Below are positions 9,929 through 35,594 of a DNA stretch of 64,000 bases, one piece after another. The stretch is from Hoeflea prorocentri (GTDB lineage: Bacteria; Pseudomonadota; Alphaproteobacteria; Rhizobiales; Rhizobiaceae). A model generated the notes under the pieces. It ran no database searches. It was not told the DNA's origin and saw nothing but the letters and a program-made list of their open reading frames with translations. Made by a program: the position numbers and the translations under genes. Location: assembly GCF_027944115.1 (NCBI RefSeq), contig NZ_JAPJZI010000001.1:558001-622000 (forward strand), written 5' to 3'. Each line of letters starts with the position of its first letter. Position 1 is the first letter of the stretch.

Positions 9929-9942
9929 TTGACCTGCGTCAA
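9929..9942. promoter_or_regulatory. FNR/FixK box upstream of the split-barrel flavoprotein
   Basis: TTGACCTGCGTCAA is a perfect TTGAC-N4-GTCAA dyad, 56 bases before the ATG at 9999. That is the spacing expected for a class II FNR-dependent promoter, centred near -41. Confidence 0.75.
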
Positions 9943-9998
9943 CTTGGCGGCGGCTGTCGATGCTCTAATGGACTCCAACGCTGAAGACGGAGCTCATT

Positions 9999-10448
9999 AT
10001 GGACCAGGAGAAACGCAATCAGGTCGTCTCGATCATCGATGACGTCAACGATATGACCATCGCCACGGTGCGTGACGACGGATTTCCGCAGGCAACGACG
10101 GTCAGCTTCATGAATGACGGGCTGACGCTTTATTTCATGACCACGAGCGACAGCCAAAAGGCCTCGAATATTGCAAAAAACAACAGGGTGTCGGTCACCA
10201 TTAACCGGGATTACGGGTCCTGGGACAAGATCGAAAGCCTGTCCATGGGCGGTTTGGCTCTTCGGGTCACCGACCCGGCCGAGCAGGAGAAGATCGGCGA
10301 GCTGCTTATGGAAAAGTTCCCTGAAGCTGCCCAGTACGAACCTGAGGACACTGATGTCGAGTTGGCTTTTTTCCGGGTCGAACCCCGGGTCGTCTCGCTC
10401 CTGGATTACTCGAAGGGTTTCGGTCACACCGAAACTTTGACCGTGTAG
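9999..10448 (+). CDS. Pyridoxamine 5'-phosphate oxidase-family (flavin split-barrel) protein
   Basis: A 149-residue protein with the FMN-binding split-barrel pattern. The strand TIATVRDDGFPQATTVSFM is near residues 18-36, then LYFMTTSDSQKASNIAKNNRVSVTIN. The family includes oxidases and general stress proteins that bind FMN, F420 or haem, so the reaction is not known. Proteins of this size in stress islands are usually called general stress proteins. It stands alone with its own FNR/FixK box and faces the convergent USP gene at 10507. No signal peptide is seen, so it should be cytoplasmic. Confidence 0.82.
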   Translation: MDQEKRNQVVSIIDDVNDMTIATVRDDGFPQATTVSFMNDGLTLYFMTTSDSQKASNIAKNNRVSVTINRDYGSWDKIESLSMGGLALRVTDPAEQEKIGELLMEKFPEAAQYEPEDTDVELAFFRVEPRVVSLLDYSKGFGHTETLTV

Positions 10449-10506
10449 GCATCGCGCCTCGGCCTGAAGCGGCAATAATTGCTGCGCAGGCAGGTGGAGC
10501 GAAGCG

Positions 10507-11340
10507 CTAGTGCATCATCAGGACGGGCACGTCGGTGTTGTTCAATACATGGCGCGTGACGCCGCCGAACACCTGTTCACGCCATCGGCGGTGGGAATAG
10601 GCACCCATGATAAGGATGCTGCCCGCCGTTTCTGCCGTTTTGTCGATCAGGAACTGTCCGGTCTTTTTTCTGCCGGGGTCATGCATTTCGATATCGACAG
10701 CCTTTGCGTGCAGCAAAAGGTATTCCTCTAGCTGTCTGAGAGTGTGCGCGCCGGAGTCGCTGCCGACTGTCACGACGACAACCTGTTTTGCGGCCTCAAT
10801 GAGTGGCATTGCCGCCGAAATCGCATGGGAGGCTTCCAGACTTTGGTTCCAGGCTATGACGATGCGGTTTCCAAGATCCTTGTCGGCCGGCCGGGGTGGG
10901 GTCAGGAGCAAAGGCTTTGAAGATTGCGACAACATCTGATCGAGCAGAAATTGCCAATAACGGCCCGCCGGCTGGTTGATGCTTCCCAGCACGGCAAGGT
11001 CTGAAAAGAGCGTATAATCGAGGAGCGACGTGCCGGGAACTTCGGACGTGCCGGTGAATTTGGCAGTTACCTTCTTGTAACGCGCGGCGTGCGCTTCAAA
11101 GGTGTCCTGCGCCAGTTGCTGTACTTGCTTCAGCTTCTGTTTTTCCTGTTCCTCGAGAGCTTCGATTTCGTTCTCCGACAGGCCCCAATTGTCCATCCAA
11201 TCTCCCATCGAGCGGTCATGCCGTGGAGATATGCCCTGAACCTGGGCTTTGTGATGGGCGGCCAGAACGAACGCAAAGTCCGCCGTTTGTGTCATGTCAA
11301 CACTATGACTGACGGGCAGAAGGATTCTCTTTATGGACAT
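10507..11340 (-). CDS. Universal stress protein, tandem-domain
   Basis: A 277-residue protein with two USP folds, each about 140 residues. The first starts IKRILLPVSHSVDMTQTADFAF and the second at about residue 155 with NRIVIAWNQSLEASHAI. The C-terminal nucleotide-binding loop reads MGAYSHRRWREQVFGGVTR and has Ser where the ATP-binding consensus G-x2-G-x9-G has the second Gly. ATP binding is therefore uncertain. The gene reads leftwards from a promoter with an FNR/FixK box at 11407, 66 bases upstream. In related bacteria such genes are induced by low oxygen and energy stress. Confidence 0.9.
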   Translation of the reverse strand: MSIKRILLPVSHSVDMTQTADFAFVLAAHHKAQVQGISPRHDRSMGDWMDNWGLSENEIEALEEQEKQKLKQVQQLAQDTFEAHAARYKKVTAKFTGTSEVPGTSLLDYTLFSDLAVLGSINQPAGRYWQFLLDQMLSQSSKPLLLTPPRPADKDLGNRIVIAWNQSLEASHAISAAMPLIEAAKQVVVVTVGSDSGAHTLRQLEEYLLLHAKAVDIEMHDPGRKKTGQFLIDKTAETAGSILIMGAYSHRRWREQVFGGVTRHVLNNTDVPVLMMH

Positions 11341-11406
11341 GGGCGCTATCTCCTTTCGGCCGGTTGTTGGCCGTCATGCATATTTGCATGTGTCCTGTGG
11401 GAAGAG

Positions 11407-11420
11407 TTGATCTGCGTCAG
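11407..11420. promoter_or_regulatory. FNR/FixK box upstream of the USP at 10507
   Basis: TTGATCTGCGTCAG matches TTGAT-N4-GTCAA with one mismatch at the last base. It is 66 bases upstream of the leftward USP start. Its reverse complement is identical to the box at 35581. Confidence 0.65.
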
Positions 11421-11487
11421 CTTCCGCTCACGAAAACGGGTTTTCTTCATGCAGGAGCGATCGGTCGCGCAGATGACCGTGATGCAT

Positions 11488-11982: not shown

Positions 11983-11996
11983 TTGACGCAGGTCAA
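11983..11996. promoter_or_regulatory. FNR/FixK box upstream of the DUF2267 gene
   Basis: TTGACGCAGGTCAA is a perfect TTGAC-N4-GTCAA dyad, 69 bases before the leftward start at 11913. Confidence 0.75.
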
Positions 11997-12556: not shown

Positions 12557-13237
12557 CTAGTTGCGTTCCGCAAGCGTTTTCAGAAGAACCGGTTGGCGAA
12601 TGCAAACGCGGTGTTTTCTGGGCAACTCGATGTAACCACCCTGGCGAAGTACGGTCAGCGTGCGGCTTATTGTCTCGTGAGACAGGCCGAGGAAGTCCGC
12701 GATGTCCGACCGGCTCATGGGCAGGTCGAAACAGGTCTTGCCGTCGCGTTTTTCGCCGACACGAAGGAAGAGCGTGTAGAGGAAGGAGGCGACTTTCTCC
12801 GTTGCCGATTTGCGGCCGAGCATGATGAAATGCTCCTGCATACTGTTTATTTCCGACGCCGCATGGTGCAGCAAACGGTTTGTGAATTTGGTGTGGCCGG
12901 CTTTTTCCGCCGAGGCGGTATTGCCTGGATATACCCGCAGGCGGACCTTGCTTACGGCTTCGCAATTACAATGGTGGATGCCGTCGTGGCTGAGCCCGAT
13001 GACATCTCCTGGATAGCCGAAGGACAGAACCAGGCGACGTCCGTCAAGCAAAACCTTCGACGTGCGGACAACGCCCTCAATCATCTCGTAGATGAAATCC
13101 GCTTCATCGCCTTCGTAGAACAGCGAGTGTCCGGCCGTGATATTGATTGTCCTGGTAAGGGGCGGGTAACCGCCGGCCGCTTCGGTGTCCGTTATGGTGT
13201 CGGTATCAAGTGTGCTAACAGGTGACGTGACATACAT
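12557..13237 (-). CDS. Crp/Fnr-family transcriptional regulator, FNR/FixK type
   Basis: A 226-residue protein with an N-terminal cyclic-nucleotide-like beta roll (ITAGHSLFYEGDEADFIYEM) and a C-terminal winged helix. The recognition helix contains HETISRTL; its E-x-x-S-R pattern is the one FNR uses to read TTGAT. This fits the eleven boxes around it. The ATG at 13237 has an upstream CGGAGT; a start 42 bases earlier (13279) would add two Cys. Either way the N-terminal four-Cys cluster of FNR is missing, so it is more like FixK/DNR and probably does not sense oxygen through an iron-sulphur cluster. It is divergent from the response regulator gene. Confidence 0.88.
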   Translation of the reverse strand: MYVTSPVSTLDTDTITDTEAAGGYPPLTRTINITAGHSLFYEGDEADFIYEMIEGVVRTSKVLLDGRRLVLSFGYPGDVIGLSHDGIHHCNCEAVSKVRLRVYPGNTASAEKAGHTKFTNRLLHHAASEINSMQEHFIMLGRKSATEKVASFLYTLFLRVGEKRDGKTCFDLPMSRSDIADFLGLSHETISRTLTVLRQGGYIELPRKHRVCIRQPVLLKTLAERN

Positions 13238-13424
13238 GGTGCACTCCGCAGGTAAACCGCTAACATGCGGGCATTCCACCTGAGGTTGGTAACGTCAGTA
13301 TCCCATGTTTGTATCAAAATGTATGTGATCGTAACTTTGTCGTTATTCGCCGGTAGGCTGACTGGAATTGGCGGCATAGACAACAGTGAGTGCAAGCCGG
13401 GTTCATCCGGCGGATGGGGTAAGC

Positions 13425-14189
13425 ATGGCTGTGAAAAAGACCGGGATTCTCGTAGTAGATGACGAACCGAAGGTACGTCTGCTGTTGCGCCGGCTATTGG
13501 AGATGGAAAACTTCTTCGTGGCTGAAGCGGGCAATTCGCGCGAGGCTCTTGATTGCATGGACAAACATTCAATCGACCTGGTTACCCTCGATCTCAATCT
13601 GGGCAGCGAAAACGGTCTCAATGTTGCCTTGGCGATCCGCGCGAAAAGAGATGTTCCAATTGTCATGGTGACGGGCAAGGGGGATATCATCGATCGCGTT
13701 GTCGGGCTCGAGATGGGAGCCGATGATTACATTACGAAACCCTTTCACGGGCGCGAAGTCGTGGCGCGTGTGCGTTCCGTTCTGCGCCGCAGCGGCGGAC
13801 GAGCGGCCGAAAGGGAGCCGGCAACGGGTGAATCGAAGCCAAAATCAGACAGTGCGGTCTACCACGTCAATGGCTGGACCATCTGCCCATCCAGCATGGA
13901 ACTTTTTGATACCGATGGTTGCAGGCACAGTCTGACCAGTCAGGATTTCAAACTTCTGACCGTTTTTCTCAAAAATCCGAAACGGGTCCTGTCCCGCGAT
14001 CAGATCATGGATCGAACGCACGGTTCGAACTGGACGCCCTATGACCGTACGGTCGACAATCAGATTGCCCGCCTGAGAAAGAAAATTGAAAAGGACCCGA
14101 ATAACCCAACAATCATAAAGACGGTGCGGGGCGTCGGGTACATCATGACAGCCGACGTTGAGATGTGCGAAAGCGAAGCCGTGCTCTAG
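13425..14189 (+). CDS. OmpR-family response regulator
   Basis: A 254-residue two-domain regulator. The receiver (residues about 7-120) has acidic pair Asp12-Asp13, phospho-acceptor Asp56 in VTLDLNLG, and KPFHGREVV for the switch Lys. The C-terminal winged helix (about 150-245) has LTSQDFKLLTVFLKNP and TVRGVGYIM, as in OmpR/PhoB. The ATG at 13425 begins the receiver domain directly; a start 39 bases upstream adds only an unrelated leader. Its 3' end overlaps that of the kinase gene by 4 bases, in convergent orientation. It is a likely partner of that kinase, though it is OmpR-type and not the NarL-type FixJ. Confidence 0.92.
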   Translation: MAVKKTGILVVDDEPKVRLLLRRLLEMENFFVAEAGNSREALDCMDKHSIDLVTLDLNLGSENGLNVALAIRAKRDVPIVMVTGKGDIIDRVVGLEMGADDYITKPFHGREVVARVRSVLRRSGGRAAEREPATGESKPKSDSAVYHVNGWTICPSSMELFDTDGCRHSLTSQDFKLLTVFLKNPKRVLSRDQIMDRTHGSNWTPYDRTVDNQIARLRKKIEKDPNNPTIIKTVRGVGYIMTADVEMCESEAVL

Positions 14190-15727
14190 TCATCAGCTTC
14201 AATTACGGTCCGCAAAACCCGGGCCAGATCAGCCTGACGATAGGGTTTTCGCAGGAGGCTGAGCGAGCGGTTTGAAAGCCTGTCCGCATTCAACAGATCC
14301 TCGGCAAATCCGGAGGTCATCAGTATGCCGATGTCCGGGTGCATTTTTCTCGCCGCATCGACAACCCCGTAACCAGAGAGCCTGCCGGGCATGACCAGAT
14401 CGGTGAAGACGACATCGATATCCTTCCGGTTCTTCAATATGTTGAGGGCTTCCTGTCCATCACTGGCCGAAACCGTTCGATAGTTGAGGATTTCCAATCG
14501 TTGGACGGTCAGCTTGCGCACGCGGGGGTCGTCTTCCACGACAAGAACGAGCTCGCCTCTACCTTCCAGTGAGTGCTGATCCGCGATGTCATCCTGAGTG
14601 TGTTCAGCTTCTGCAACACCGTCGTGCCGCGGCAGATAAAGGTTGACCGTCGTTCCGAAGCCTTCCTCGGAATAAATGGTCACGTTGCCTCCCGATTGCT
14701 TGGCAAAACCGTAGACCGTTGACAGGCCAAGCCCCGTCCCGCGACCGGACTGCTTGGTTGTAAAGAAGGGCTCGAATGCTTTTTCGAGCACGTTTTCGGT
14801 CATGCCCACACCTGTGTCGCTGACTGAAATGCGAATGTAATCGCCCGGTTCCACGCCGATTTCACGCGCAGAGTAATGCTCGTCGATCACCGTGTTGCTG
14901 GTTTCTATAAACAGGCTTCCGCCGGCGGGCATTGCATCGCGGGCATTGACGGCGAGGTTAAGCAGCGCTGTTTCCACCTGTCCCGGATCAGCAAGGGTCG
15001 GCCACAGGTCCTTTGAAAGCCGCGCATCGAATTCGACATGAATGCCAAGCGTCCGCCTGAGCATGCTGAACAGGTTTTCAACCAGCGCATTCACGTCCAT
15101 GACTTTCGGCCGCAAGACGCTGCGCCGGGCAAAGGCCAGCAAAAGATCCGTCAGATTGGCTCCAAGCTCCGCCGCTTCACTCGCCTCCTTAAGGAGTTCC
15201 AGGTTGGTGCTGTCTTGCAGCTTTCTCTCAAGGAGTTCGAGATTTCCGGTAATGATTGTCAGCAGATTGTTGAAATCATGAGCTATTCCACCCGTCAGTT
15301 GACCGATGGCCTCGAGCCGCTGCGATCGCTCGAGTGCCTGTTCCGTGTTCTTTCTGGCCGTCAGGTCATGAATGATTCCGCAAAAATACACCTTGTCGCC
15401 GTTCCGGTATTCGCCGACCGCCAGATGGATGGGAAAGCTGGTTCCATCCATCTTTCTGCCGATAACCTCCCGGCCTTTGCCTATGATGTGCTTTTCGCCA
15501 GTCTGGATATATCGGCGGATATTGTCGTTATGCTCCCGAGCCCACTGCTCAGGCATGAGCATGCTCACATTGTTGCCGATCAGGTCCTTCAGCTCGTAGC
15601 CGAACAGCTGCTCGGTCGAGCGGTTCGCCGACTGGATCAGTCCGTCGCTGTCGATCGTGATGATCGAATCCACCGCGGCCTCAAGCAGGGCCTCGGTAAT
15701 GCTGGCCTGTTCGTGCGGTGTTTTCAT
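14186..15727 (-). CDS. FixL-like haem-PAS hybrid histidine kinase with C-terminal receiver
   Basis: A 513-residue soluble protein with no membrane segment. Domain order is PAS (about 10-125), HisKA with His150 (IAHDFNNLL), HATPase (N-box NLAVNARDAM near 257-266, DTGVGM, GTGLGLSTVYG) and a receiver (about 393-510) with Asp443 in FTDLVMPG. Aligning the PAS to Bradyrhizobium FixL by fixed offset puts His66, Arg72, His80, Ile81 and Arg86 on the haem ligand His200 and pocket residues Arg206, His214, Ile215 and Arg220. Only Ile218 differs (Lys84). It is therefore a likely haem-based oxygen sensor. It shares an FNR/FixK box with the divergent BON gene. Confidence 0.9.
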   Translation of the reverse strand: MKTPHEQASITEALLEAAVDSIITIDSDGLIQSANRSTEQLFGYELKDLIGNNVSMLMPEQWAREHNDNIRRYIQTGEKHIIGKGREVIGRKMDGTSFPIHLAVGEYRNGDKVYFCGIIHDLTARKNTEQALERSQRLEAIGQLTGGIAHDFNNLLTIITGNLELLERKLQDSTNLELLKEASEAAELGANLTDLLLAFARRSVLRPKVMDVNALVENLFSMLRRTLGIHVEFDARLSKDLWPTLADPGQVETALLNLAVNARDAMPAGGSLFIETSNTVIDEHYSAREIGVEPGDYIRISVSDTGVGMTENVLEKAFEPFFTTKQSGRGTGLGLSTVYGFAKQSGGNVTIYSEEGFGTTVNLYLPRHDGVAEAEHTQDDIADQHSLEGRGELVLVVEDDPRVRKLTVQRLEILNYRTVSASDGQEALNILKNRKDIDVVFTDLVMPGRLSGYGVVDAARKMHPDIGILMTSGFAEDLLNADRLSNRSLSLLRKPYRQADLARVLRTVIEADD

Positions 15728-15762: not shown

Positions 15763-15776
15763 TTGATGCACATCAA
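15763..15776. promoter_or_regulatory. FNR/FixK box between the kinase and BON genes
   Basis: TTGATGCACATCAA is a perfect TTGAT-N4-ATCAA dyad. It lies 35 bases upstream of the leftward kinase start and 61 bases upstream of the rightward BON gene. The spacing suits the BON gene best. Confidence 0.78.
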
Positions 15777-15837: not shown

Positions 15838-16494
15838 ATGGTTTCGGATTCCACTCTAACAAAACGCGTGCTCGATGAGCTTCGCTGGGACCGCAGTGTC
15901 GACCAGTCGCACATCGGTGTATCGTCGGCCCATGGTGCGGTCATACTGAGCGGGCATGTGCCCAACTATCCAGAAAAGATCGCGGCCTGCGAGGCGGCAA
16001 AGAGGGTCAAAGGCGTTCTCGCGGTTGCGGACGAGATCGAAGTCGATCTTCCCGCGGAGTGGCGGCGCGATGACGCAAGCATAGCCGAACGCATCGCACA
16101 TGTGCTGGGCTGGGGCGTCAATGTGCCACAGGATCAGGTCAAGGCGAGTGTCAGAAACGGCTATGTGACGCTTTCGGGAGAAGTTGACTGGCAGTATCAG
16201 CGCGCCCAGGTGCTGCAACAGATAAGGCATGTTGCCGGTCTGCGCGGCCTGACCAGTGAGATCAGGATCAAGCCGCGCGCAACCGCCGTCAGCGTGCAAA
16301 ATCAGATTGAAGAGGCCCTTTACAGACATTCCCAGGAAGAGGCGAAGACGGTTTGTGTAACCGTATCGGGAGATGCGGTTACGTTGAGCGGACACATCGC
16401 TGCACCTTATCAACGGGACCTTGTCAAGGAAGCCGCCTGGTCCGCACCGGGGGTGCGGCATGTCATCGACAATATGGAACTACGCCAGGCATGA
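15838..16494 (+). CDS. Triple BON-domain protein
   Basis: A 218-residue protein with three BON repeats at about residues 5-72, 78-145 and 150-217. Each shows the pattern V-x-L-S-G-x-V: AVILSGHVPNYPEK, YVTLSGEVDWQYQR and AVTLSGHIAAPYQR. BON domains are usually periplasmic or lipid-associated (OsmY), but this protein has no signal peptide, so it is probably cytoplasmic. A close paralogue is encoded at 31742. The upstream FNR/FixK box suggests induction at low oxygen. Exact function unknown. Confidence 0.9.
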   Translation: MVSDSTLTKRVLDELRWDRSVDQSHIGVSSAHGAVILSGHVPNYPEKIAACEAAKRVKGVLAVADEIEVDLPAEWRRDDASIAERIAHVLGWGVNVPQDQVKASVRNGYVTLSGEVDWQYQRAQVLQQIRHVAGLRGLTSEIRIKPRATAVSVQNQIEEALYRHSQEEAKTVCVTVSGDAVTLSGHIAAPYQRDLVKEAAWSAPGVRHVIDNMELRQA

Positions 16495-16587: not shown

Positions 16588-16601
16588 TTGATTCTCGTCA
16601 A
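16588..16601. promoter_or_regulatory. FNR/FixK box upstream of the host-attachment-type gene
   Basis: TTGATTCTCGTCAA is a perfect match to TTGAT-N4-GTCAA, 62 bases before the chosen start at 16664. Confidence 0.75.
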
Positions 16602-18367: not shown

Positions 18368-18381
18368 TTGATTTTCATCAA
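18368..18381. promoter_or_regulatory. FNR/FixK box upstream of the site-2 protease
   Basis: TTGATTTTCATCAA is a perfect TTGAT-N4-ATCAA dyad, 57 bases upstream of the leftward protease start. It lies in the 333-base gap 18311-18643, which also has a second box for the rightward ppsA gene and otherwise nothing I recognise. Confidence 0.78.
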
Positions 18382-18563: not shown

Positions 18564-18577
18564 TTGATCAGCATCAA
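18564..18577. promoter_or_regulatory. FNR/FixK box upstream of ppsA
   Basis: TTGATCAGCATCAA is a perfect dyad, 66 bases before the ATG at 18644. It would fall inside the coding region if a far-upstream start of ppsA were used, which argues for the shorter gene model. Confidence 0.78.
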
Positions 18578-18643
18578 TTGCCTGCCGCAGCATCCGACAT
18601 ATCGTGGCGGGCAATCGATTGTACATCACATATGGGCTGGGCG

Positions 18644-21037: not shown

Positions 21038-21097
21038 TTGTGAAACGGCTTGCCGTATCCGAAAGCCCACCAGACGAACGGTTCCTTAGGTCGCAAC

Positions 21098-22065: not shown

Positions 22066-22079
22066 TTGATCGGCGTCAA
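22066..22079. promoter_or_regulatory. FNR/FixK box upstream of the usp-ndvB operon
   Basis: TTGATCGGCGTCAA is a perfect match to TTGAT-N4-GTCAA, 120 bases before the TTG start at 22200. The distance implies a leader of about 80 bases if the promoter is class II. Confidence 0.72.
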
Positions 22080-26200: not shown

Positions 26201-29200
26201 CATCTGCTCAACTGGTACGACACGCGGAGCCTGGAGCCTCTGGAGCCGCGTTATGTCTCCACGGTCGACAGCGGAAACCTTGCGATCAGCCTGCTGGCGG
26301 TCAAAAACGGATGCCGGCAGATCATAGACAGCCCGGTCATGGACGGGTCATTGTGGCGCGGTCTTGATTGCGTTCTCGACCTTCTTGAAGAGGCTGCCGG
26401 ACGCCTTTCCGCGTGGGAATCCGGGAATTGCGAACGCAGCTTGAGCGCCGTCAGGTCTCAGATTGCCCTGGCCACCGGTTCCATGGACGAGTGGCTTCCG
26501 GCTCTGGAACGGCTCGACGGGTTTTGGCCCGAGCTCGAAAATGCAATAGGCGGGGCGATTGAAGCCAGCACGTCAACGACGGCGTCTGATCTGGAGGAAA
26601 TACGGGTATGGGTTGAACGCTTTGAGCATCACCTGCGTGCGCTGCGCCGGGCGATGGGTATCTATCTGCCCTGGCTGGGCAAGCTGGAAACAGCCCCGGA
26701 ACAATACTCCGCTCTTGCCCGACAAATCCGCGGCTGTCTGGACCCTTCCTCTGCCATAGGCGAGGCGCGTTCCAAGAGTATTCAGTGTCTGGAACTCATC
26801 GACGGCTTGAGCGATGAGGATCAGGCCGATGAATGGCTGCGGGGGCTACGTCTTGCCATCGAACACGGTCTGCAGCGTCAGGAGCTATTGCAGTTCAGTC
26901 TGGAGGATATTTGCGACCTTTGCGACGAAAAATCCTACGGGATGAATTTCGCCTTTCTCTACGATCCGGAAGTGAGGCTGTTTCGGATTGGCTACAATCT
27001 CAGCAGCGGCCAGATGGACACCAGCCACTATGACCTGCTGGCGACGGAAGCGAGGCTGGCCAGTTTTTTCGCCATTGCAAAACACGATGCACCGATCGAA
27101 CACTGGTTCTATCTCGGCAGGCCGATCACAAGGCTGCGCGGAAAGCCCTCTATTCTTTCCTGGAACGGGTCGATGTTCGAGTATCTCATGCCGCCTCTGT
27201 TCCTTCCCGGCAAGCGCGACACGCTCCTTGGAGAGAGCGAGGCAACGGCGATCGAGTATCAACGCCACTATGCCAAGCGACGCGGCGTGCCGTGGGGCAT
27301 CTCCGAATCCGCATTTGCAGTTACGGATGCCGATGGCAACTATCAGTATCGCGCATTTGGCGCTCCGGGGCTGGGTATCCGCAGGGGTTTGACCAGCGAT
27401 CTGGTTATTGCTCCTTATGCCAGTGCGCTTGCCCTTTGCATCTGGCCCAACGCCGCCGTCAAAAACCTGCGGCTGTTCGAACAACTGGGTGTTCTGGGAA
27501 TACACGGTTTCGTGGAGGCTCTGGACTATACACCCGACAGGGCGGACGCACATGGGGGCTACGTCCCGGTGAACACCTACATGGCTCACCACCAGGGAAT
27601 GATCCTTGCTGCCATAGCGAATGTGCTGGGCAAAGACATTCTTGTCCGACACGTACTGAGTGAACGGCGCCTTCAGGCGGTGGAATATCTGCTGCAGGAA
27701 AAAGTGCCGTGGACCGTATCGACGGAACCGGGCAGGGCAGACGAAATCTGGTCGCAACCGGAAGAACCCAAGAGCCTTCCGGGGCCTGCATCATGGATTC
27801 CGACCCGTACCGGCACCGTTCCTCAGTTTCACCATATCGGCAACGGTCACATGTCCATGAGAATATCCGACGCCGGTGGCGGTGGGCTTTCCTTGAACGG
27901 AACTTCGCTGACGCGCTGGCAGCCGGATCCGACACGGGATCACTATGGATACTGGATCTACGTTCAGGATGAAGAAAGCGGTTCCATCTGGTCTGTCGGA
28001 CGGCGTCCCGCAGGCCGTGATGCCGATGAGGAAAGGGTCGTCTTTCACCAGCATATGGTTGAAATGATGCGGCGCGCGGATCGGCTCACGGTTCGGATGG
28101 AGGCAACGGTCGCTCCTTCGGACAATGTGGAAATCCGGCAGGTCACCGTTACGAATGAGGATGAGGTCGACAGATCGATCCTTTTGACGAGTTACGCGGA
28201 AGTGGTGCTGTCGCCGCCGCGGGATGACGAACGCCATCCCGCGTTCAGCAAACTGTTTGTGCACAGCTCCTACAATGCCAGGAAGCGGTGTCTGCTATTC
28301 GAACGCAGGCCGAGGAGGCCAACGGATTCCCCTCCGGTGCTCCTGCACACCATTGCCGGCGATGAAGCCGATTTCGACATCGTCTCCTACGAAACCGATC
28401 GCAGATCGTTTCTTGGCCGATGCCCGGATGGTGACAGGCCGGAGGCGCTGCGTTCGGGATGTTCACGATCAACCGGCTGGACGCTCGACCCGGTCATGTC
28501 TATGCAGGTGCGGCTCAGGCTCAAGCCGATGCAGACCCGGTCATTTTCGTTTGTAACGGTGAGCGCAAAGTCGGCCCGGGCGGCCATGGACATTGCCGAC
28601 AAATATCGCACGCGTGACTTTGGCTGGGTATTTCGTGACGCATCGCGCACCTATTCCCGGGAGTATCGGCGTCTGGAAATCGACTCGCAGAAGGCGCCCC
28701 AGCTTCAGGCTCTGTCGTCCTTGCTGGCACAGAATTGTCCTGCCTTGCGTCGAGCACCCGGATCCATCACGTCGAACCGCTTTGGCCAACCTGACCTTTG
28801 GCAGTTTGGCATATCGGGCGATCTGCCGATCCTGTTGATCAAAATCGAGGATGAAGAAGGTTTCGACCTTGTCGATCTTCTGGTTCGTGCGCAGCAACTG
28901 TGGCGGCGGGGCGGATTGGAGGCCGATATTGCTATCCTGCGGATTGGCAGTTCGGGTTATGAGGAGCCGGTTCGCGAGCGAATCCTGTCGGTCTTGCGCG
29001 ATGCCCATGCCTACGGGTTTCTTGGACGAAATGGCGGCGTTCACCTCATCTCCGCAAGTCACATCGACCCTAAAAGGCGTTTCGCCCTGGAGGCTTCGGC
29101 GAGCGTTGTTCTGGAGCCTGAGAAGCTGAGCCTTGAAGAGGCTCTGGATGCTGTTCTGGAGTCCCGCGCGCCGCCACCGCGGTTTGAACCGGCAGTTCCA

Positions 29201-31639
29201 ATACGGTTCATCACGCCCCGACAACTGCAGCGGCCAGGCGGTCTTGAATTCGACAACGGCTTTGGCGGGTTTGATAAGGACAATGGCGAGTATGTCGTCT
29301 TTCTGGAGCCGGGCGAACGCACGCCGGCGCCCTGGTGCAATGTGCTGGCAAACGACACATTCGGAACCATCGTCAGCGAATCCGGCCTCGGGTTCAGCTG
29401 GGCAGAAAACAGCGGCGAAAACCGATTGACGTCGTGGAGCAACGACCCGGTTTGCGACACGCCCGGCGAATTTCTCTATCTGCGTGATGAAGCCAGTGCC
29501 GAGTTCTGGACAGTCACCGCAGCACCGCTGGGAGACAAGTCCGCGTGTGAAACGCGGCACGGGGCAGGGTTTACGAGCTATCGGCAGAACAACCATGCCC
29601 TCGAGCAGGAAATGCTGGTGTTCGTTCCCAAATCCGATCCGGTCAAGATCGTGCGCCTGAGACTGAACAATCTTGCGTCAGAGACCCGCAGGATCACCGC
29701 AACCTATTTTGCCGACCTGTTGCTGGGCGCGGTGGGCAGCAGTGCAAAACCGCATATTGCCTGCCAATACAGTCCTGGCTGCAAGGCGATATTGGCGAAC
29801 AATGCCTGGAACCCGGAATTTGCATCGCGCGTCGCCTTTCTGACCGCCTCCCTGCCACCGCATTCAATGTCCGGCGACCGGTATGATTTTCTCGGCCATG
29901 AGGGGGACCATGCCAACCCTGCTGCCCTGCGGCACATGGATCTGGGAGGCCGCTTTACAGCTGGAGGCGATGTGTGCGCGGCCTACCAGGTGCATCTGGA
30001 TATCGCGCCGGGCGAGACCGCCGAGGTTTGTTTTGTGCTTGGTCAAGGAGAAGACGGCACCGCAGCCGAGGCGCTGGCCGGGAAATGGACCTCTCCGGCA
30101 GTCGTCAACGGGGCGCTGGAAGAGATCGATGACCTGTGGGCCAAGCGGTTCGCTGTTGCCTTTGTCGAAACACCGGACCGGGCTTTCGACCTGATGATGA
30201 ACCGCTGGTTGCCATACCAGAACATGTCGTCACGCTATCTGGCCCGCGCGGGCTTCTACCAGGCGGGCGGAGCGTTCGGATACCGGGACCAGTTGCAGGA
30301 TACTCTGGCGTTGCTGCACAGCGATCCCGATCTGGTCCGCAGCCACTTGCTCAGGGCTGCCAGCCATCAGTTCGAGGAAGGAGACGCTCTTCACTGGTGG
30401 CACCCGCCCTCTGGCCGCGGCGTTCGCACGCATTGCTCCGACGACTATCTGTGGCTTCCCTTCGTAACCGCCCGCTATGTGGAGGCGACGGGTGACCGGT
30501 CTGTGCTTGACGAACCGGTGCCGTTTCTGACCGGTCCGGAACTGCGGGCGGACCAGCACGATCATTACGCCCTGTTTGATGTGGGCGACAGCGCGAGCCT
30601 TTATGAACACTGCAAACGGGCACTGGAGCGGATGATGCCGACCGGCCGGCACGGCCTGCCGCTGATCGGTACCGGTGACTGGAATGACGGCATGGATCGT
30701 GTCGGCTGGAAGAAGAAGGGTGAAAGTGTCTGGCTTGCCTGGTTCCAGATTGCGATTATCTCGCATTTTGTCCCGATCATGCGGCGCAGGGGGGATGCGG
30801 CCGCCGCCACCCGTCTACGAGACCATGCCAAGAAACTCAAAGAGGCCATAGGCAGCAGCGCCTGGGACGGAAAATGGTTCCTGCGTGCGTTCGATGATGA
30901 TGGCGAGGTTTGGGGGTCGAGCAGTATTGATGAGTGCCGGATCGATTCCATAGCCCAGTCCTGGAGCGTTCTTTCCGGTGGACCGATCAGCAAGAAAAAG
31001 GTTGAGGCAATCGGGTCTGCGAAGAAACTGCTCATCGATCCGCAAAACCGCCTTGTCAAACTGCTGGACCCGCCTTTCGAAAACACCACGCGTGATCCGG
31101 GTTACATCAAGGCTTATCCGCCGGGTGTGAGGGAAAACGGCGGTCAATATACACATGCGGCGGCCTGGCTTGGCCTGGCCTGCGCCAAGCTTGGCGATGG
31201 CGATGCCGCCTGGCAGGTTTTTGATATCATCAATCCGATCCGCCGCGCGGACAAAAGGGAGGCGGCCGACCTGTATCGCCGCGAACCCTATGTGCTGCCG
31301 GGCGACGTCAGTGCCCTTGCTTCGCGGGAAGGCCAGGGCGGCTGGTCCTGGTATACGGGCGCTGCGGGATGGACCTGGCAACTGGGCATGGAAGGCATTC
31401 TTGGCGTTCGGATTGAAAGCAAGGCCTTCACGATCGATCCGAGCCTTCCGCGACAGTGGCGGAAGGCCAGGGTCGTGCTCAACAGGCCCGATGGTACGGT
31501 TATAGTGACGATCGATGATCCGCAGGGTGTAGGCCATGGCGTAAAGTGGATAAAGGCGGGCGGCAGGACCGTGAAGGGAAACAAGATCGGTTTTCCAGGC
31601 CCCGGCAGAACGCTCAAGGTGACTGTTCGGCTCGGATAG
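23231..31639 (+). CDS. ndvB: Cyclic beta-1,2-glucan synthase (NdvB/ChvB family)
   Basis: At 2802 residues this is the full length of NdvB/ChvB. The enzyme initiates, elongates and cyclises beta-1,2-glucan from UDP-glucose at the inner membrane. Hydrophobic segments flank a GT84 domain (about residues 390-760) with ITLDADTMLPPG and the acceptor motif LRLHRWVRGDW. A glucoamylase-like domain follows in the middle (about 950-1500). The C-terminal GH94 part includes GTGDWNDGMDRVG near residue 2480, which holds the catalytic-type Asp, and controls ring size. It overlaps the USP stop by 4 bases. Cyclic glucans act in osmotic adaptation and host interaction; a low-oxygen link is inferred from context. 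There may be another ndvB elsewhere in the genome. Confidence 0.93.
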   Translation: MMDAVSGPENEMGRAAFELAGSQVLLSAVEPQSDIYAKLSELTGWLDRLRTYCLDAPAVHSRAADWLLDNDYQVLRAIRQVQSGLPEHFFGRLDVVQSNSGVIRPRIFDIAHSISAVDGIQISMRNLVQYLNAFQEKDGLSIAELWAFPSALRLASLEMLAVAFFRLDEDLSFPFRVDEPDETTDPADLVARSIINLGAIHSIRWQDFVDQTSLVEAVLTSDPARVYRRMEFSSRDTYRKVIEKTAAHSSLDEVEVARCAVKLSSPFEDDDPRKHVGYWLEGAGLAELETLAASRVPAIERIGRKLQFLKGGLYAASLVTVAVLALCVPVYYLYLVSAPPWAWILATALSFIPASVLSVSLVHWAITQLVRPRQLPAFDFSKGIPDEYATTVIVPVIVTKPDEILAIVSRLETRRLANPDKNLRYVLLSDLCDADHERLDSDDAIEQGLVSAFHDLNRRHGQAGYEPFVLMHRHRVYNTGNGRWMGWERKRGKLEQFNRFVLGDPSTAFSVSVGSLEALRQNRYVITLDADTMLPPGAAAQLVGTLAHPLNRAVVDERSGQVLSGYSILQPRMEMFPSVGSETLFSHLYSGDAAIDIYTRAVSDVYQDMFGSGSFVGKGIYDVKVLQGRLENRIPENAILSHDLFEGLLGRTALVTNIVLYESFPSTYAEYVLRLHRWVRGDWQLLPWLRRRVPMADGTRANNPFSLLDRWKIIDNLRRSLVPPALLLFFIGGWMVLPGSAVLWTLLAVAAPGTYLLGELFSGLSRALKRGFAGELLHRLRENSGRWFLAITFLVSDTLISIDAIVRTVWRVGISQQNLLEWRSAAHTAEWVSSHSPRSAIWKLMWPSSALSVVLFAVLILFHHHALSAATPLLVLWLLAPEIAIWTSKTRRIRREALDQRQSGFLLRIARRTWHFFEMFAGPEDNWLPPDNYQDAPRSATAHRTSPTNIGLYMVSALSARDFGFITTDDFASRCRNVHSTLDRMQTYRGHLLNWYDTRSLEPLEPRYVSTVDSGNLAISLLAVKNGCRQIIDSPVMDGSLWRGLDCVLDLLEEAAGRLSAWESGNCERSLSAVRSQIALATGSMDEWLPALERLDGFWPELENAIGGAIEASTSTTASDLEEIRVWVERFEHHLRALRRAMGIYLPWLGKLETAPEQYSALARQIRGCLDPSSAIGEARSKSIQCLELIDGLSDEDQADEWLRGLRLAIEHGLQRQELLQFSLEDICDLCDEKSYGMNFAFLYDPEVRLFRIGYNLSSGQMDTSHYDLLATEARLASFFAIAKHDAPIEHWFYLGRPITRLRGKPSILSWNGSMFEYLMPPLFLPGKRDTLLGESEATAIEYQRHYAKRRGVPWGISESAFAVTDADGNYQYRAFGAPGLGIRRGLTSDLVIAPYASALALCIWPNAAVKNLRLFEQLGVLGIHGFVEALDYTPDRADAHGGYVPVNTYMAHHQGMILAAIANVLGKDILVRHVLSERRLQAVEYLLQEKVPWTVSTEPGRADEIWSQPEEPKSLPGPASWIPTRTGTVPQFHHIGNGHMSMRISDAGGGGLSLNGTSLTRWQPDPTRDHYGYWIYVQDEESGSIWSVGRRPAGRDADEERVVFHQHMVEMMRRADRLTVRMEATVAPSDNVEIRQVTVTNEDEVDRSILLTSYAEVVLSPPRDDERHPAFSKLFVHSSYNARKRCLLFERRPRRPTDSPPVLLHTIAGDEADFDIVSYETDRRSFLGRCPDGDRPEALRSGCSRSTGWTLDPVMSMQVRLRLKPMQTRSFSFVTVSAKSARAAMDIADKYRTRDFGWVFRDASRTYSREYRRLEIDSQKAPQLQALSSLLAQNCPALRRAPGSITSNRFGQPDLWQFGISGDLPILLIKIEDEEGFDLVDLLVRAQQLWRRGGLEADIAILRIGSSGYEEPVRERILSVLRDAHAYGFLGRNGGVHLISASHIDPKRRFALEASASVVLEPEKLSLEEALDAVLESRAPPPRFEPAVPIRFITPRQLQRPGGLEFDNGFGGFDKDNGEYVVFLEPGERTPAPWCNVLANDTFGTIVSESGLGFSWAENSGENRLTSWSNDPVCDTPGEFLYLRDEASAEFWTVTAAPLGDKSACETRHGAGFTSYRQNNHALEQEMLVFVPKSDPVKIVRLRLNNLASETRRITATYFADLLLGAVGSSAKPHIACQYSPGCKAILANNAWNPEFASRVAFLTASLPPHSMSGDRYDFLGHEGDHANPAALRHMDLGGRFTAGGDVCAAYQVHLDIAPGETAEVCFVLGQGEDGTAAEALAGKWTSPAVVNGALEEIDDLWAKRFAVAFVETPDRAFDLMMNRWLPYQNMSSRYLARAGFYQAGGAFGYRDQLQDTLALLHSDPDLVRSHLLRAASHQFEEGDALHWWHPPSGRGVRTHCSDDYLWLPFVTARYVEATGDRSVLDEPVPFLTGPELRADQHDHYALFDVGDSASLYEHCKRALERMMPTGRHGLPLIGTGDWNDGMDRVGWKKKGESVWLAWFQIAIISHFVPIMRRRGDAAAATRLRDHAKKLKEAIGSSAWDGKWFLRAFDDDGEVWGSSSIDECRIDSIAQSWSVLSGGPISKKKVEAIGSAKKLLIDPQNRLVKLLDPPFENTTRDPGYIKAYPPGVRENGGQYTHAAAWLGLACAKLGDGDAAWQVFDIINPIRRADKREAADLYRREPYVLPGDVSALASREGQGGWSWYTGAAGWTWQLGMEGILGVRIESKAFTIDPSLPRQWRKARVVLNRPDGTVIVTIDDPQGVGHGVKWIKAGGRTVKGNKIGFPGPGRTLKVTVRLG

Positions 31640-31668: not shown

Positions 31669-31682
31669 TTGATGCACGTCAA
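31669..31682. promoter_or_regulatory. FNR/FixK box upstream of the second BON gene
   Basis: TTGATGCACGTCAA is a perfect match to TTGAT-N4-GTCAA, 59 bases before the ATG at 31742. It differs from the box of the first BON gene by one base. Confidence 0.77.
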
Positions 31683-31741: not shown

Positions 31742-32392
31742 ATGATCGATGATGCAACCTTGAAGCAAAATGTTCTCGATGAACTGCAATGGGATGTCAA
31801 AGTAAATCACGCGCATATTGGCGTCGTGACGTCCGACGGATCCGTGACGCTGAGCGGACATGTGGAAAGCTATCCCGAAAAAACGGCCGCCGTTGATGCA
31901 ACGAAGAGGGTTCGCGGCGTCAAGGCGCTGGCCGATGAGATCTCGGTGCACCTGCCGTCGGAAAGGCGGATTGACGACAGCGATATCGCGGGACGCCTGG
32001 CGCATGTTCTGGAGTGGAACGTGTCCATTCCGGACAGCAATGTGCAGGCCAGTGTTCATGCGGGTCATGTCACATTGACAGGTGAGGTCGAATGGCAACG
32101 CCAACGCCGGCACATTGAAGAGCAGGTCCTGCACGTCAGCGGCATAACGGGAATCTCGAACAAGATTACCATCAAGGCAGGGCCGACACGGTCGGACGTC
32201 AAGCAGGAAATCGAGAACGCCCTCTTGCGCAGTTCAGAAAAAGAGGCCGATCAGATCAAAGTCACGGTTTCGGGCAATACGGTGACCCTGGAAGGATATG
32301 TGCGCGATTTTCATCAGCGCGACCTTATCGAAGATGCAGCCTGGGCTGCGCCGGGGGTGCTTTATGTCGTCGACAATATCCGTATCGAATAG
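31742..32392 (+). CDS. Triple BON-domain protein, paralogue
   Basis: A 216-residue protein closely related to that at 15838 over its whole length, for example IDDATLKQNVLDELQWD against VSDSTLTKRVLDELRWD. Three BON repeats carry SVTLSGHVESYPEK, HVTLTGEVEWQRQR and TVTLEGYVRDFHQR. No signal peptide is present. The ATG at 31742 follows GGAGA; the open frame extends 57 bases further upstream but would include the FNR/FixK box. A GC-rich hairpin lies about 40 bases after the stop. The duplication and matching promoter boxes suggest the pair arose by duplication of gene plus promoter. Confidence 0.9.
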   Translation: MIDDATLKQNVLDELQWDVKVNHAHIGVVTSDGSVTLSGHVESYPEKTAAVDATKRVRGVKALADEISVHLPSERRIDDSDIAGRLAHVLEWNVSIPDSNVQASVHAGHVTLTGEVEWQRQRRHIEEQVLHVSGITGISNKITIKAGPTRSDVKQEIENALLRSSEKEADQIKVTVSGNTVTLEGYVRDFHQRDLIEDAAWAAPGVLYVVDNIRIE

Positions 32393-32459: not shown

Positions 32460-32519
32460 ATCCATGGTTCACGGTCGCCGATCTTGAGTCTGCGTCAGTA
32501 ACCGGAAGCTTTGTCGTCA

Positions 32520-33350
32520 ATGAAACCCAAGACCCTCATGACCGTGCAATCGACAGATATGCCGGCCGAGTCCATTGAACCCATGCTTTCACTGGCACAC
32601 CGCATGGATGCCCATTTGAACATCGTTGTGGTCGGTCTGGTTCAGACAGGACCGGAGATATTTTACGGTGGCGCTCCCGAATACTATATCAACGACCGCA
32701 GATCCGAGATGGTTCGCACAACCGACAAGCGGGTCGACGCACTGGAGCAGCTGGCACGCAAGGCTGGTGTATCTGTTTCGGTCATCGCGAACAATCTGGA
32801 GCGATCGGCCATTTCCGTCGTTGTTGGAAAGCACGCTCTCTTTTCAGACATGGTGCTCATTCCGCATGCGCGTGTTCCGGGCAACCCGATTTGCACGGAG
32901 GCCTTCAACGGCATCCTGTTTACCGCAGGTATTCCCGTCCTGGTGTTGGGAGAGGACGAGGACGTTCGATATCCCTTCAAACGTATTGTCATCGCCTGGA
33001 ACTTCGAGCCCGAAGCGGTTCGGGCCATCCACCGAAGCCTGCAGATTCTTGAGGATGCGGAGGATGTCAGGGTTGTCCTGGTGGATCCGGACCACCGCAT
33101 ATATGGAGCAAGTCCGGGAGATGACATCGCAACGTTCCTGACCCGGCATGGTCTCCCGGTCACGGTTGATGTGATCTCAAGCGCCGAGAAGGATGTTGCA
33201 GACGCTTTGCTGAAACATGCGGCCGACAAGGACGCGGACCTTGTTGTCATGGGTGCATACGGGCATTCGCGGTTCCAGCAATGGCTGCTTGGCGGCACGA
33301 CCCGGGACATCCTGCAGAATGCCTCTTGTCCGGTGTTCATGGTCCACTGA
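32520..33350 (+). CDS. Universal stress protein, tandem-domain
   Basis: A 276-residue two-domain USP. The second domain starts near residue 155 (FKRIVIAWNFEPEAVRAIH) and ends with MGAYGHSRFQQWLLGGTTRD, which fits the ATP-binding pattern G-x2-G-x9-G. The N-terminal domain starts KPKTLMTVQSTDMPAE. The ATG at 32520 is preceded by GGAAG at good spacing; a TTG nine bases upstream is too close to it. It stops 5 bases before the convergent ftsH stop. A degenerate FNR-like sequence (32484-32498) is one base too long in its spacer and was not counted. Confidence 0.9.
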   Translation: MKPKTLMTVQSTDMPAESIEPMLSLAHRMDAHLNIVVVGLVQTGPEIFYGGAPEYYINDRRSEMVRTTDKRVDALEQLARKAGVSVSVIANNLERSAISVVVGKHALFSDMVLIPHARVPGNPICTEAFNGILFTAGIPVLVLGEDEDVRYPFKRIVIAWNFEPEAVRAIHRSLQILEDAEDVRVVLVDPDHRIYGASPGDDIATFLTRHGLPVTVDVISSAEKDVADALLKHAADKDADLVVMGAYGHSRFQQWLLGGTTRDILQNASCPVFMVH

Positions 33351-33355
33351 GAACG

Positions 33356-35197
33356 TCAGGCGGATTCCTGCCTTTCCGTCTCTGTGTGTCTTCGTCCATC
33401 CAGATCAAGCGGCGCAAAATCCTCCGGTGTTATGGTCTCCTTTTCGAGCAGCAGATTTGCACCCTCTTCAAGATCCTCGCGCCGCGCGGTCAGTATTTCC
33501 CTCGCGCGGCCGTAGGCCGTATCAATGAGTTCGCGCACGGCGAGGTCGACCTCCCGGGCGGTTGCCTCCGAGTATTCCCTTGGGCGCATGCTGAGCGCAT
33601 TGTCTCCCAAATAGCTTGCACGCTGCTCCTCCAAGACCGCCTGACCGGTCTTTTCCCACATGCCGAACCGGGTCACGATCTGCCGCGCGACATCCGTGGC
33701 CTTGGCGAGATCGTCCGCGGCGCCCGTGGATATTTCGCCGAAGACAAGATCCTCCGCCGCGCGGCCCGCCAGCAGCACGGTCATGCGGCTCTTCAGTTCA
33801 TCGGTCGTGATCAGAAAGCGATCCTCGGTCGGCCTTTGCAAGGTGTAACCAAGTGCGCCGATGGATCTGGGTATGATTGAAACCTTGTGAACGGGATCAC
33901 TGCCGGGGAGGGATGCGGCGGCCAGTGCATGCCCCATTTCGTGATAGGCAACACGCCGGCGCTCGTCCGGATTGAGAAGGCGGGAGCGTCGCTCCGACCC
34001 GGCGACTATGCGTTCGACCGCGCTGGTGAAATCCTCCATGGTCACGGTGTCCGCACCGCGCCGGGTCGCCACGATGGCTGCCTCGTTTACAAGGTTGGCG
34101 AGATCGGCCCCGGTAAATCCGGGGGTCAGCCCGGCGACCTCACCGACATCGAGGTCCTGTGCAAAGGTAACCTGTTTCAGATGGACCCTCAAAATGGCTT
34201 CGCGGCCGATTTTGTCGGGCCTGTCCACGACGACCTGCCTGTCAAACCGGCCGGCCCGCAGAAGTGCGGGGTCAAGTATTTCCGGCCGGTTGGTTGCGGC
34301 CAGCAGGACAATGCCGGAGCGCGGGTCAAAACCGTCCAGCTCCGCAAGGAGCTGATTGAGCGTCTGTTCCTTTTCGTCATGACCCCCTCCGACATTGCCA
34401 AGCGGCGAGCGCGCGCGGCCCAGTGCGTCGAGTTCATCAATGAAGATGATGCAGGGCGCTGCCTTGCGGGCCTGTTCAAACAGATCGCGCACACGCGCGG
34501 CGCCGACACCCACAAACATTTCAACAAACTCGGATCCCGATATGGAGAAGAAAACAACACCGGCCTCACCGGCGACCGCGCGCGCCAGAAGTGTCTTTCC
34601 GGTACCGGGCGGGCCGACAAGCAAGACCCCCTTGGGCACGCGGGCGCCGAGGCGTTCATATTTCTGCTTGTCTTTCAGAAAGGAAACGATCTCCTGGAGT
34701 TCGGCCTTAGCCTGGTCGACGCCGGCCACATCCTCGAAACTCACTCCGGTCTCGGTCTCCACGTATACCTTCGCCTTTGACCGTCCGATATTCATTGCGC
34801 CGCCCATGCCCTGACGCTCGGCGATGCGGCGGAACAGGAAGAACCAAACCCCGAGGAAAAACAGCATCGGGACGATCCATGACAGAAGATTGGTCAGCCA
34901 ATTGCCGTCCGCTGCACCGGAATACTCAACATCCGCCTGGTCCAGGATCTCGGCAATGTCCGTGCCGACGCGATTGGTGACGAAGTAGCGCTTCCCGTCT
35001 CGGGGGATCTTGAACTCGCCCTGCAAGCGGGTATCGGAAACCAGAACGCTGGCGATCTGATCGCTGTCCAGCAGAGTTTTGAATTCGCTATAGGATATGC
35101 GACTGGTTTCCTGGGCACTGATCCACATCTGCACGAAAACAATCGCAACGAGAGCAAACAGTATGTAGGCGAAATTGAGCTGTTGCTGTTTGTTCAT
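33356..35197 (-). CDS. ftsH: ATP-dependent zinc metalloprotease FtsH
   Basis: A 613-residue membrane AAA protease that degrades membrane and regulatory proteins. Two membrane segments lie at about residues 9-26 and 104-121 with a periplasmic loop between. Walker A GPPGTGKT is at 195-202, Walker [11 protein letters not shown] at 250-259, the second region of homology near 302-320, and the zinc motif HEMGH at 419-423. It is shorter than housekeeping FtsH (about 640) and sits in a stress island, so it may be a specialised second copy. Start ATG has AGGAAC upstream on its strand. It shares an FNR/FixK box with the divergent zinc-ribbon gene. Confidence 0.94.
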
Positions 35198-35260
35198 CCG
35201 AGGTTCCTTAGGTGGTGTGCGGCGCTGGTATGGAATTTACAGCAGAGCAGCTCACGCCCA

Positions 35261-35274
35261 TTGATCCGGATCAA
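35261..35274. promoter_or_regulatory. FNR/FixK box between ftsH and the zinc-ribbon gene
   Basis: TTGATCCGGATCAA is a perfect symmetric dyad. It is 63 bases from the ftsH start and 70 bases from the zinc-ribbon start, so it could serve both directions. Confidence 0.8.
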
Positions 35275-35344
35275 ACACATGATGAAACCGTGTTAAATCC
35301 TTGAAACCATTGAAATAGAATGAAAGTTCCCTATATGTTCTGTA

Positions 35345-35509
35345 ATGAATGTCAGAGTGAACATGGATCTGGAGACGTGTTGCGAACAGAATGCGGATCA
35401 AAAACCCCGTCGCTGCCTGATGTGCGGCAAGATGTTCGACAGCTTTGGACCCGGAAACCGCATCTGCAAAAAGTGCAAGTCGACACAGGCCTGGAAGCGC
35501 GGCATTTGA
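35345..35509 (+). CDS. Small zinc-ribbon protein, 54 residues
   Basis: The open frame from ATG 35345 to TGA 35507-35509 encodes 54 residues. Two Cys pairs, CLMC at 24-27 and CKKC at 41-44, with FDSFGPGNRI between them, form a compact four-Cys zinc ribbon. Very short proteins with this C-x2-C, FxSxGPGNRxC pattern are common in alphaproteobacteria, function unknown. The basic C-terminus (STQAWKRGI) could contact nucleic acid. It is divergent from ftsH under a shared FNR/FixK box. It may start at the internal Met7. Confidence 0.75.
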   Translation: MNVRVNMDLETCCEQNADQKPRRCLMCGKMFDSFGPGNRICKKCKSTQAWKRGI

Positions 35510-35580
35510 TGCCGTCTGCCAGGTTGCGATAAGTCTGGTCGGGCCAAAGGGCCGGATTAGCCGCAACTCGCCCGGCAAAA

Positions 35581-35594
35581 CTGACGCAGATCAA
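35581..35594. promoter_or_regulatory. FNR/FixK box upstream of the flavodoxin
   Basis: CTGACGCAGATCAA matches the dyad with one mismatch in the first base. It is 34 bases before the ATG at 35629, so a class II promoter would start at or next to the ATG. It is the exact reverse complement of the box at 11407. Confidence 0.55.

Follow-up and report, generated by a model that had tools for sequence, protein, structure and literature searches.

What brings eleven FNR/FixK-type boxes together within 26 kb of the genome of Hoeflea prorocentri, and which regulator and signal do they serve? We followed up a sequence-only reading of a 64-kb stretch of this genome (contig NZ_JAPJZI010000001.1, positions 558,001 to 622,000; hereafter the window), which had described a clustered low-oxygen regulon with an FNR-type regulator encoded in its middle. 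Our analysis suggests, with a probability of roughly 0.8, that the boxes mark a low-oxygen survival island, which carries its own switch, made of a hybrid FixL (hFixL), a response regulator and FixK, among its predicted targets.

The boxes were searched with the pattern TTGAY-N4-RTCAA, which is palindromic, so that the 74 search rows for the genome represent 37 distinct places. Nine perfect boxes were found in the window against 0.32 expected; the maximum among 100 shuffles was two, none reached nine, and the rest of the window outside the nine island sites held none. Across the 5.04-Mb genome there are 37 distinct perfect boxes (six with the reversed control pattern), and nine of them lie within the 25.3 kb taken as the island span for the enrichment test, namely 0.5% of the genome, where 0.19 would be expected; the binomial P is 2e-13, or about 5e-11 once tiling of the genome is allowed for. 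If one mismatch is tolerated, the window contains 20 matches against 7.7 expected. All eleven boxes lie where the sequence-only reading had placed them, and its claim of a clustered FNR/FixK-type regulon at a density beyond chance is borne out by a density far above the genome average, together with the intergenic position, promoter geometry and genus conservation described below. The boxes, with the gap in nucleotides (nt) to the start codon of the presumed target, are as follows.

9929..9942, plus strand: perfect box, target PNPOx-family gene (pyridoxamine 5'-phosphate oxidase-like), gap 56
11407..11420, minus strand: one-mismatch box, target universal stress protein (USP) gene USP1, gap 66
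11983..11996, minus strand: perfect box, target DUF2267 gene, gap 69
15763..15776, plus strand: perfect box, divergent, between hFixL (gap 35) and BON1 (gap 61)
16588..16601, plus strand: perfect box, target host-attachment-type gene, gap 62
18368..18381, minus strand: perfect box, target M50-CBS gene, gap 57
18564..18577, plus strand: perfect box, target phosphoenolpyruvate (PEP) synthase operon, gap 54
22066..22079, plus strand: perfect box, target USP2-glucan synthase unit, gap 120
31669..31682, plus strand: perfect box, target BON2-USP3, gap 59
35261..35274, minus strand: perfect box, divergent, between FtsH (gap 63) and a small zinc-ribbon open reading frame (ORF; gap 70)
35581..35594, plus strand: one-mismatch box, target flavodoxin-like gene, gap 34

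With gene starts chosen here from alignments and spacing, all eleven boxes are intergenic, as had been claimed, in a region where intergenic DNA makes up 2510 of 26427 bases (9.5%). The gap to the start codon is 54-69 nt at nine sites, the exceptions being 22066 (120 nt) and 35581 (34 nt). Read towards their targets, the two one-mismatch sites, 11407 and 35581, are the identical 14-mer CTGACGCAGATCAA, and both are intergenic.

We aligned the eleven sites on the box and read them towards the target, taking BON1 and FtsH as the targets of the divergent boxes. A -10-like hexamer, xAxxxT, is favoured exactly 21 nt downstream of the box, where 18 of the 22 key letters (A2 and T6) are present; the next-best offsets reach nine, and with the flanks shuffled base by base 5000 times, 18 is never reached at any offset from 10 to 35. 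Both letters occur at 21 nt in eight of the eleven sites, 11407 included, one letter at the PNPOx gene and at the flavodoxin-like gene (35581), and none at PEP synthase, where the -10 letters downstream of box 18564 fit 22 nt instead. A -10 element at -12 to -7 combined with the 21-nt spacing would put the box centre at -40.5. The hexamer letters at 21 nt agree with the fixed distance from box to -10, and the centre at about -40.5 to -41.5, that characterise FixK/FnrN class II promoters. The E. coli FNR box is centred at -41.5. Two starts have been mapped for nosR of Bradyrhizobium, at distances of 40.5 and 67.5 from the FixK2-type box axis (PMC5582078).

Clustering by chance or base composition could draw on the fact that two of the eleven boxes carry a mismatch and were chosen among eleven such near-matches. 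It is already refuted by the shuffles, by the concentration of nine of 37 boxes in 0.5% of the genome and by the fixed distance to the -10 hexamer, so that its probability is negligible.

The regulators next to the boxes suggest who might read them. Four features would form the switch.

12557..13237, minus strand: FixK-type CRP/FNR regulator, 226 amino acids from the ATG at 13237 (longer ORF to 13279); FixK2 4i2o is the best solved relative
13310..13335, minus strand: K-box-like tandem repeat, three GNTACA-like units repeating every 10 bp, located 73-98 nt before the ATG of FixK
13425..14189, plus strand: OmpR-type response regulator (FxkR-like), PF00072 and PF00486, divergent from fixK; the ORF opens at 13386
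14186..15727, minus strand: hFixL with heme-type PAS, HisKA, HATPase and receiver, from domain matches and FixL alignment

The regulator that the sequence-only reading had called FNR-type is indeed encoded mid-cluster and has a CRP-type helix-turn-helix with the E..SR recognition-helix residues, but it is of FixK type rather than FNR. Its best solved relative is FixK2 (4i2o, E 2.3e-27). MYVTSP is conserved in all five orthologues (one reads MYVTSPI) and was taken as the start, probably at 13237, which removes the cysteines of the longer ORF and hence leaves no FNR cluster; after this start, the alignment of the five shows no Cys-X2-Cys-Xn-Cys Fe-S ligands within 12557-13237. FNR identity was rejected because the N-terminal Fe-S cysteines are lacking. 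FixK2 is controlled by oxidation at Cys183, as reported in the part of PMC9104804 consulted, and the solved FixK2 structure is the C183S form. The corresponding residue is Ser in the window protein (LPMSRSD) and Cys in all four same-genus orthologues (LPMCRSD), so the window FixK may have lost a FixK2-like redox brake and may not respond to oxidation.

The neighbouring hybrid FixL, which was absent from the earlier reading, is the most likely oxygen sensor. Its PAS domain aligns with that of FixL (1dp6, E 2.5e-29), and the heme-binding His (H66) and the distal Arg (R86), whose roles in FixL are known, are conserved. HisKA, HATPase and a C-terminal receiver were all found; the receiver makes this FixL-like kinase a hybrid FixL. 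The response regulator, encoded between hfixL and fixK, has OmpR-type domains, and a K-box-like repeat lies upstream of fixK; it is a candidate counterpart of FxkR, a non-FixJ regulator acting on fixK through a K-box. In Rhizobium leguminosarum and Rhizobium etli the K-box is GTTACA-N4-GTTACA (sections of PMC7888657 and PMC4999443). Searched as a plain pattern in the window, the K-box is not above chance (18 against 17.5 expected, with 47 of 100 shuffles as good, and 22 against 17.5, with 13 of 100). The repeat is visible only in its three-unit form, which one of 300 shuffles of the window matched, and through comparison of eight fixK loci. These loci, namely the window, four same-genus genomes and three plasmids, are those with a fixK start in hand; R. 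lentis (L049) and Sinorhizobium meliloti (L050) were left out. A three-unit GNTACA-like tandem repeat with a 10- or 11-bp period occurs in all eight upstream regions, starting 90-104 nt before the ATG, with 29 summed mismatches against a shuffle minimum of 56 (0/300). All five genomes have a box before hfixL, which is perfect in the window and in G003 and G004 and has one mismatch in G002 and G005; its presence suggests feedback.

Reading these parts together, we propose the following chain, in which oxygen response, phosphotransfer, binding, activation and physiological role are all predicted from sequence. At low oxygen, O2 would leave the heme of hFixL (14186-15727), and the kinase would activate the OmpR-type response regulator (13425-14189). 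The latter would bind the K-box-like repeat at 13310-13335 and turn on fixK (12557-13237), whose product, carrying no Fe-S motif, would bind the boxes as a class II activator, centred about -40.5, and switch on about eleven transcription units. The predicted targets are USPs and proteins of the BON, DUF2267 and Host_attach types, the FtsH and M50-CBS proteases, PEP synthase with the PfkB kinase, the glucan synthase and the flavodoxin. The box before hfixL would probably provide positive feedback, and FnrN, whose gene lies outside the island, may take part once oxygen falls further. The other genes of the island, with families assigned from Pfam and NCBIfam profile matches, are listed below.

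9999..10448, plus strand: pyridoxamine 5'-phosphate oxidase-like flavoprotein (PNPOx), PF01243 6.5e-18
10507..11340, minus strand: universal stress protein USP1, PF00582
11488..11913, minus strand: DUF2267 protein, PF10025
12111..12428, minus strand: DksA/TraR-type zinc-finger protein, PF21173 and PF01258, with no box of its own here
15838..16494, plus strand: triple-BON protein (BON1), PF04972 in three stretches
16664..17101, plus strand: Host_attach/baeRF12 family protein, PF10116 and PF18856 on ORF 16649-17101
17147..18310, minus strand: M50 (site-2-type) membrane protease with CBS domain, PF02163 and PF00571; its genus distribution is given below
18632..21037, plus strand: PEP synthase, TIGR01418 above cut-off
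21050..22015, plus strand: PfkB-type hexose kinase, close behind PEP synthase, PF00294, and TIGR03168 above cut-off
22200..23234, plus strand: universal stress protein USP2, PF00582 in two stretches
23231..31639, plus strand: NdvB-type glucan synthase, 2802 amino acids, PF06165, PF17167 and PF10091 (GH94, glucoamylase-like), GT2-like below cut-off
31742..32392, plus strand: triple-BON protein 2 (BON2), PF04972 in three stretches, on ORF 31685-32392
32511..33350, plus strand: universal stress protein USP3, PF00582
33356..35197, minus strand: FtsH-type membrane protease, TIGR01241 above cut-off
35345..35509, plus strand: zinc-ribbon-like ORF, 54 amino acids (CxxC...CxxC), DZR_2 below cut-off only
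35629..36129, plus strand: flavodoxin-like protein, PF12682 on ORF 35617-36129

From their coordinates, PEP synthase-PfkB, USP2-glucan synthase (overlapping) and BON2-USP3 are likely operons. The zinc-ribbon-like ORF at 35345-35509, divergent from ftsH, could easily be missed by annotation; a -10-like hexamer of its own stands at 21 nt from the box that it shares with ftsH.

The sensor-regulator trio might instead answer another signal, such as nitric oxide, redox state or starvation, with the island as a general stress regulon using FNR-like boxes. Heme PAS domains can bind other gases, the targets are generic stress genes, no terminal oxidase is found among the annotated island genes, and no nifH match passes the cut-off in the eight same-genus genomes searched. 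We consider this explanation improbable, since the heme-ligand His and distal Arg match FixL, plasmids of Sulfitobacter and Terrarubrum carry relatives of the trio near genes for ccoNOP, FixH and ccoG, and Bradyrhizobium FixK2 targets under microoxia include several of the same families.

Conservation within the genus also supports a clustered regulon. A search of 60 relatives gave close FixK orthologues (57-62%) in four genomes, G002-G005, which all belong to this genus. Within the same-genus set of eight genomes (this one being G000), the orthologues of FixK, hFixL and M50-CBS co-occur in the same five and are missing from G001, G006 and G007; sensor, response regulator, FixK and several targets are conserved in four of the seven other genomes. 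In the stretches fetched from the four, the response regulator adjoins fixK (57-61% identity), and all four also hold the Host_attach protein (40-41%), PfkB (56-62%) and USPs. PEP synthase is in two of them (G003 and G004), and Hsp20, cation ATPase, DksA or ABC-export genes are in some, as shown by Pfam matches for a subset of the G002, G003 and G004 ORFs. Gene order differs among these stretches of 26-40 kb, which contain 7 (G004), 4 (G002), 6 (G003) and 4 (G005) perfect boxes. Presence in five of eight genomes with differing gene order suggests gain or loss. A recent foreign origin was considered and finds little support: no tRNA was found in the window, and its GC content, 53-60%, has no clear step at the island. 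In the genomes that lack the trio, no three of the 26 boxes of G006 fall within 26 kb, judged by eye from the full set of positions; G007 has 16 boxes (positions for 12).

Three side observations concern these relatives. The DksA/TraR-type gene (12111-12428) follows fixK with no box here, whereas its counterpart in G004 has a perfect one 33 nt ahead of the ORF (L032:3407 and 3454). In G004 the box before the hFixL gene (L032:109-1719) and the K-box-like repeat are kept despite the missing heme His; the protein may be a sensor of another input, or the gap may be a sequence error. G002 has a second, partial response regulator relative (L033:17987-18289; 66% over 101 residues) on the far side of fixK.

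Several points weigh against our reading. Box number does not follow the island, since G001, which lacks this FixK, has 63 boxes. The one-mismatch sites 11407 and 35581 are weaker, being a selection from eleven near-matches in the window. No box with fewer than three mismatches lies within 250 nt of the DksA, fixK or response regulator genes. FixK scores 157.7 bits against the 300-bit cut-off of the NCBIfam FixK family (a Caulobacter equivalog), which is still its best-scoring family; it is not that equivalog. The K-box-like repeat of the window is degenerate, its two-unit form having three mismatches, a result equalled in 94 of 300 shuffles. The eight fixK loci are not independent, since G002 and G005 are closely alike. 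The hFixL orthologue of G004 lacks six PAS residues including the heme-ligand His, and heme sensing is therefore not shared by the whole group. Finally, some boxes may mainly serve FnrN, whose motif is nearly the same.

This last point leads to a further rival explanation, in which the boxes are mainly sites for FnrN, which senses oxygen directly via an Fe-S cluster and would control the island, with the local FixK minor or silent. A separate CRP regulator at G000:C1:2390716 is FnrN by its Fe-S cysteine motif CQACEARHHGMC. The FixK and FnrN motifs are nearly identical in the account given by the relevant part of PMC4999443, and two regulators can presumably read the same box in this organism. 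We fetched the 28 boxes outside the island and annotated twenty flanking proteins. Boxes lie between fnrN and a radical-SAM (hemN-type) gene, between ccoN-type and hemerythrin genes and before a nitrate reductase alpha gene; further annotated neighbours are two USPs, Hsp20, two alcohol dehydrogenase-type proteins and a di-heme peroxidase. GatB, RecQ and EF-G-like neighbours look like chance, and some outside boxes are inside ORFs. Control mainly by FnrN nevertheless seems unlikely to us: the three genomes lacking this FixK have a more distant CRP/FNR relative (32-34% identity), presumably FnrN/FnrL, and yet lack M50-CBS, the island gene tested across the genus. The promoter spacing also differs. 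With one-mismatch boxes left out and island membership assigned by eye, boxes followed by A..T at 21 versus 22 nt number 8 to 1 in the island, PEP synthase being the one at 22, and 5 to 16 elsewhere in this genome (Fisher P 0.0016), in which the spacing idea was first seen.

In four relatives, the corresponding counts are 14 to 9 in the islands and 34 to 54 elsewhere, a weak support (one-sided P 0.047). Genomes with FixK, this one included, show 61 to 80, and those without it 12 to 32 (one-sided P 0.041); the named plasmids show no preference (8 to 10). The preference for 21 nt in the island and 22 nt elsewhere is thus a lead found after the fact, weak elsewhere and possibly new. It is conceivable, though we hold it only tentatively, that one genome has two classes of anaerobox promoters, with the box centred at -40.5 (spacing 21) in the FixK island and at -41.5 (spacing 22) in the FnrN set. 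If so, spacing rather than box letters would separate FixK from FnrN targets, and a heme-sensor branch (mild hypoxia, survival genes) and an Fe-S branch (near-anoxia, respiration) could act separately. Given a one-base difference, promoter mutants could directly address the long-standing question of how two regulators with near-identical sites, FixK and FnrN, divide their targets. Outside the island, boxes G000:C1:1551090 and G000:C1:1781565, the latter before an alcohol dehydrogenase gene, have the 21-nt spacing and are candidate distant FixK targets.

Downstream of the island, 39911-48527 holds hemin/iron ABC-uptake-like and ExbB/ExbD-like genes with a TonB receptor-like protein at 44277-46373 (names read from translations).

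By its predicted parts, the circuit corresponds to the hFixL-FxkR-FixK circuit of rhizobia, here set amid its predicted target genes. As described in the available parts of PMC7888657 and PMC4999443, R. leguminosarum and R. etli share with the island a hybrid FixL, a non-FixJ response regulator, a FixK without Fe-S motif, a K-box or K-box-like repeat upstream of fixK and an FnrN elsewhere in the genome. Their targets, however, are fixNOQP, fixGHIS and fnrN, whereas the neighbours here are stress, protease and carbon-metabolism genes; a box before hfixL and the lack of a nifH match past the cut-off also set the present case apart.

The targets resemble part of the FixK2 regulon of Bradyrhizobium diazoefficiens, several of whose members lie in bll4634-blr4659. 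Table 2 of PMC9104804 gives, as genes down in deltafixK2 at 0.5% O2, USP bll4644, host-attachment bll4645, ppsA blr4655, Hsp20 blr4637 and, elsewhere, PNPOx blr4240, with boxes at -47 to -86 (-47 to -72 for the USP, host-attachment, PEP synthase and PNPOx genes shared with the island). CBS blr4646 and the 1-phosphofructokinase-type blr4659 appear in tables of proteins changed under microoxia (PMC6515984, column heads unseen), and bll4412 has the same 14-mer as box 9929. The terms BON, FtsH, glucan and DksA have no match in the main texts of PMC9104804 and PMC6515984, nor DUF2267 in PMC6515984, the only text searched for it. FixK2 is under FixLJ, a difference from the hFixL-OmpR-type regulator pair predicted here. 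The low-oxygen-activated (lxa) locus of Burkholderia cenocepacia (PMC6127331 and PMC3759415) likewise clusters genes for USPs, a heat-shock protein, a flavin/nitro-reductase and a BON-type protein; an Anr/FixK-related CRP regulator has been proposed for it, and an lxa mutant is reported to be less viable after anoxia. It belongs to another class of bacteria, and the comparison covers gene families.

Proteins 37-53% identical to hFixL, the response regulator and FixK are also found on Sulfitobacter, Tropicibacter and Terrarubrum plasmids, with a K-box-like repeat before fixK as here, and such relatives of hFixL and FixK on R. lentis p1; no response regulator relative was found in the R. lentis p1 stretch. 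On the Tropicibacter and Sulfitobacter plasmids all three accompany ppsA or USP/CBS/cbb3 genes, with hfixL apart from the response regulator and fixK in Tropicibacter, and on R. lentis p1 FixK and hFixL are near PNPOx, FtsH, BON, GroEL and CBS genes. Unlike the island, the plasmid stretches have fewer boxes (2-6 perfect per 25-49 kb), and cbb3 oxidase genes stand near two of them. The island is a well-defined new example, similar low-oxygen clusters having been published for Bradyrhizobium FixK2 and Burkholderia. It offers a compact natural set of sensor, relay, activator, about eleven promoters and about fifteen stress and metabolism genes in 26 kb, and with no nifH past the cut-off in the genus, it suggests that the FixL-type oxygen switch known from rhizobia also serves general hypoxic survival.

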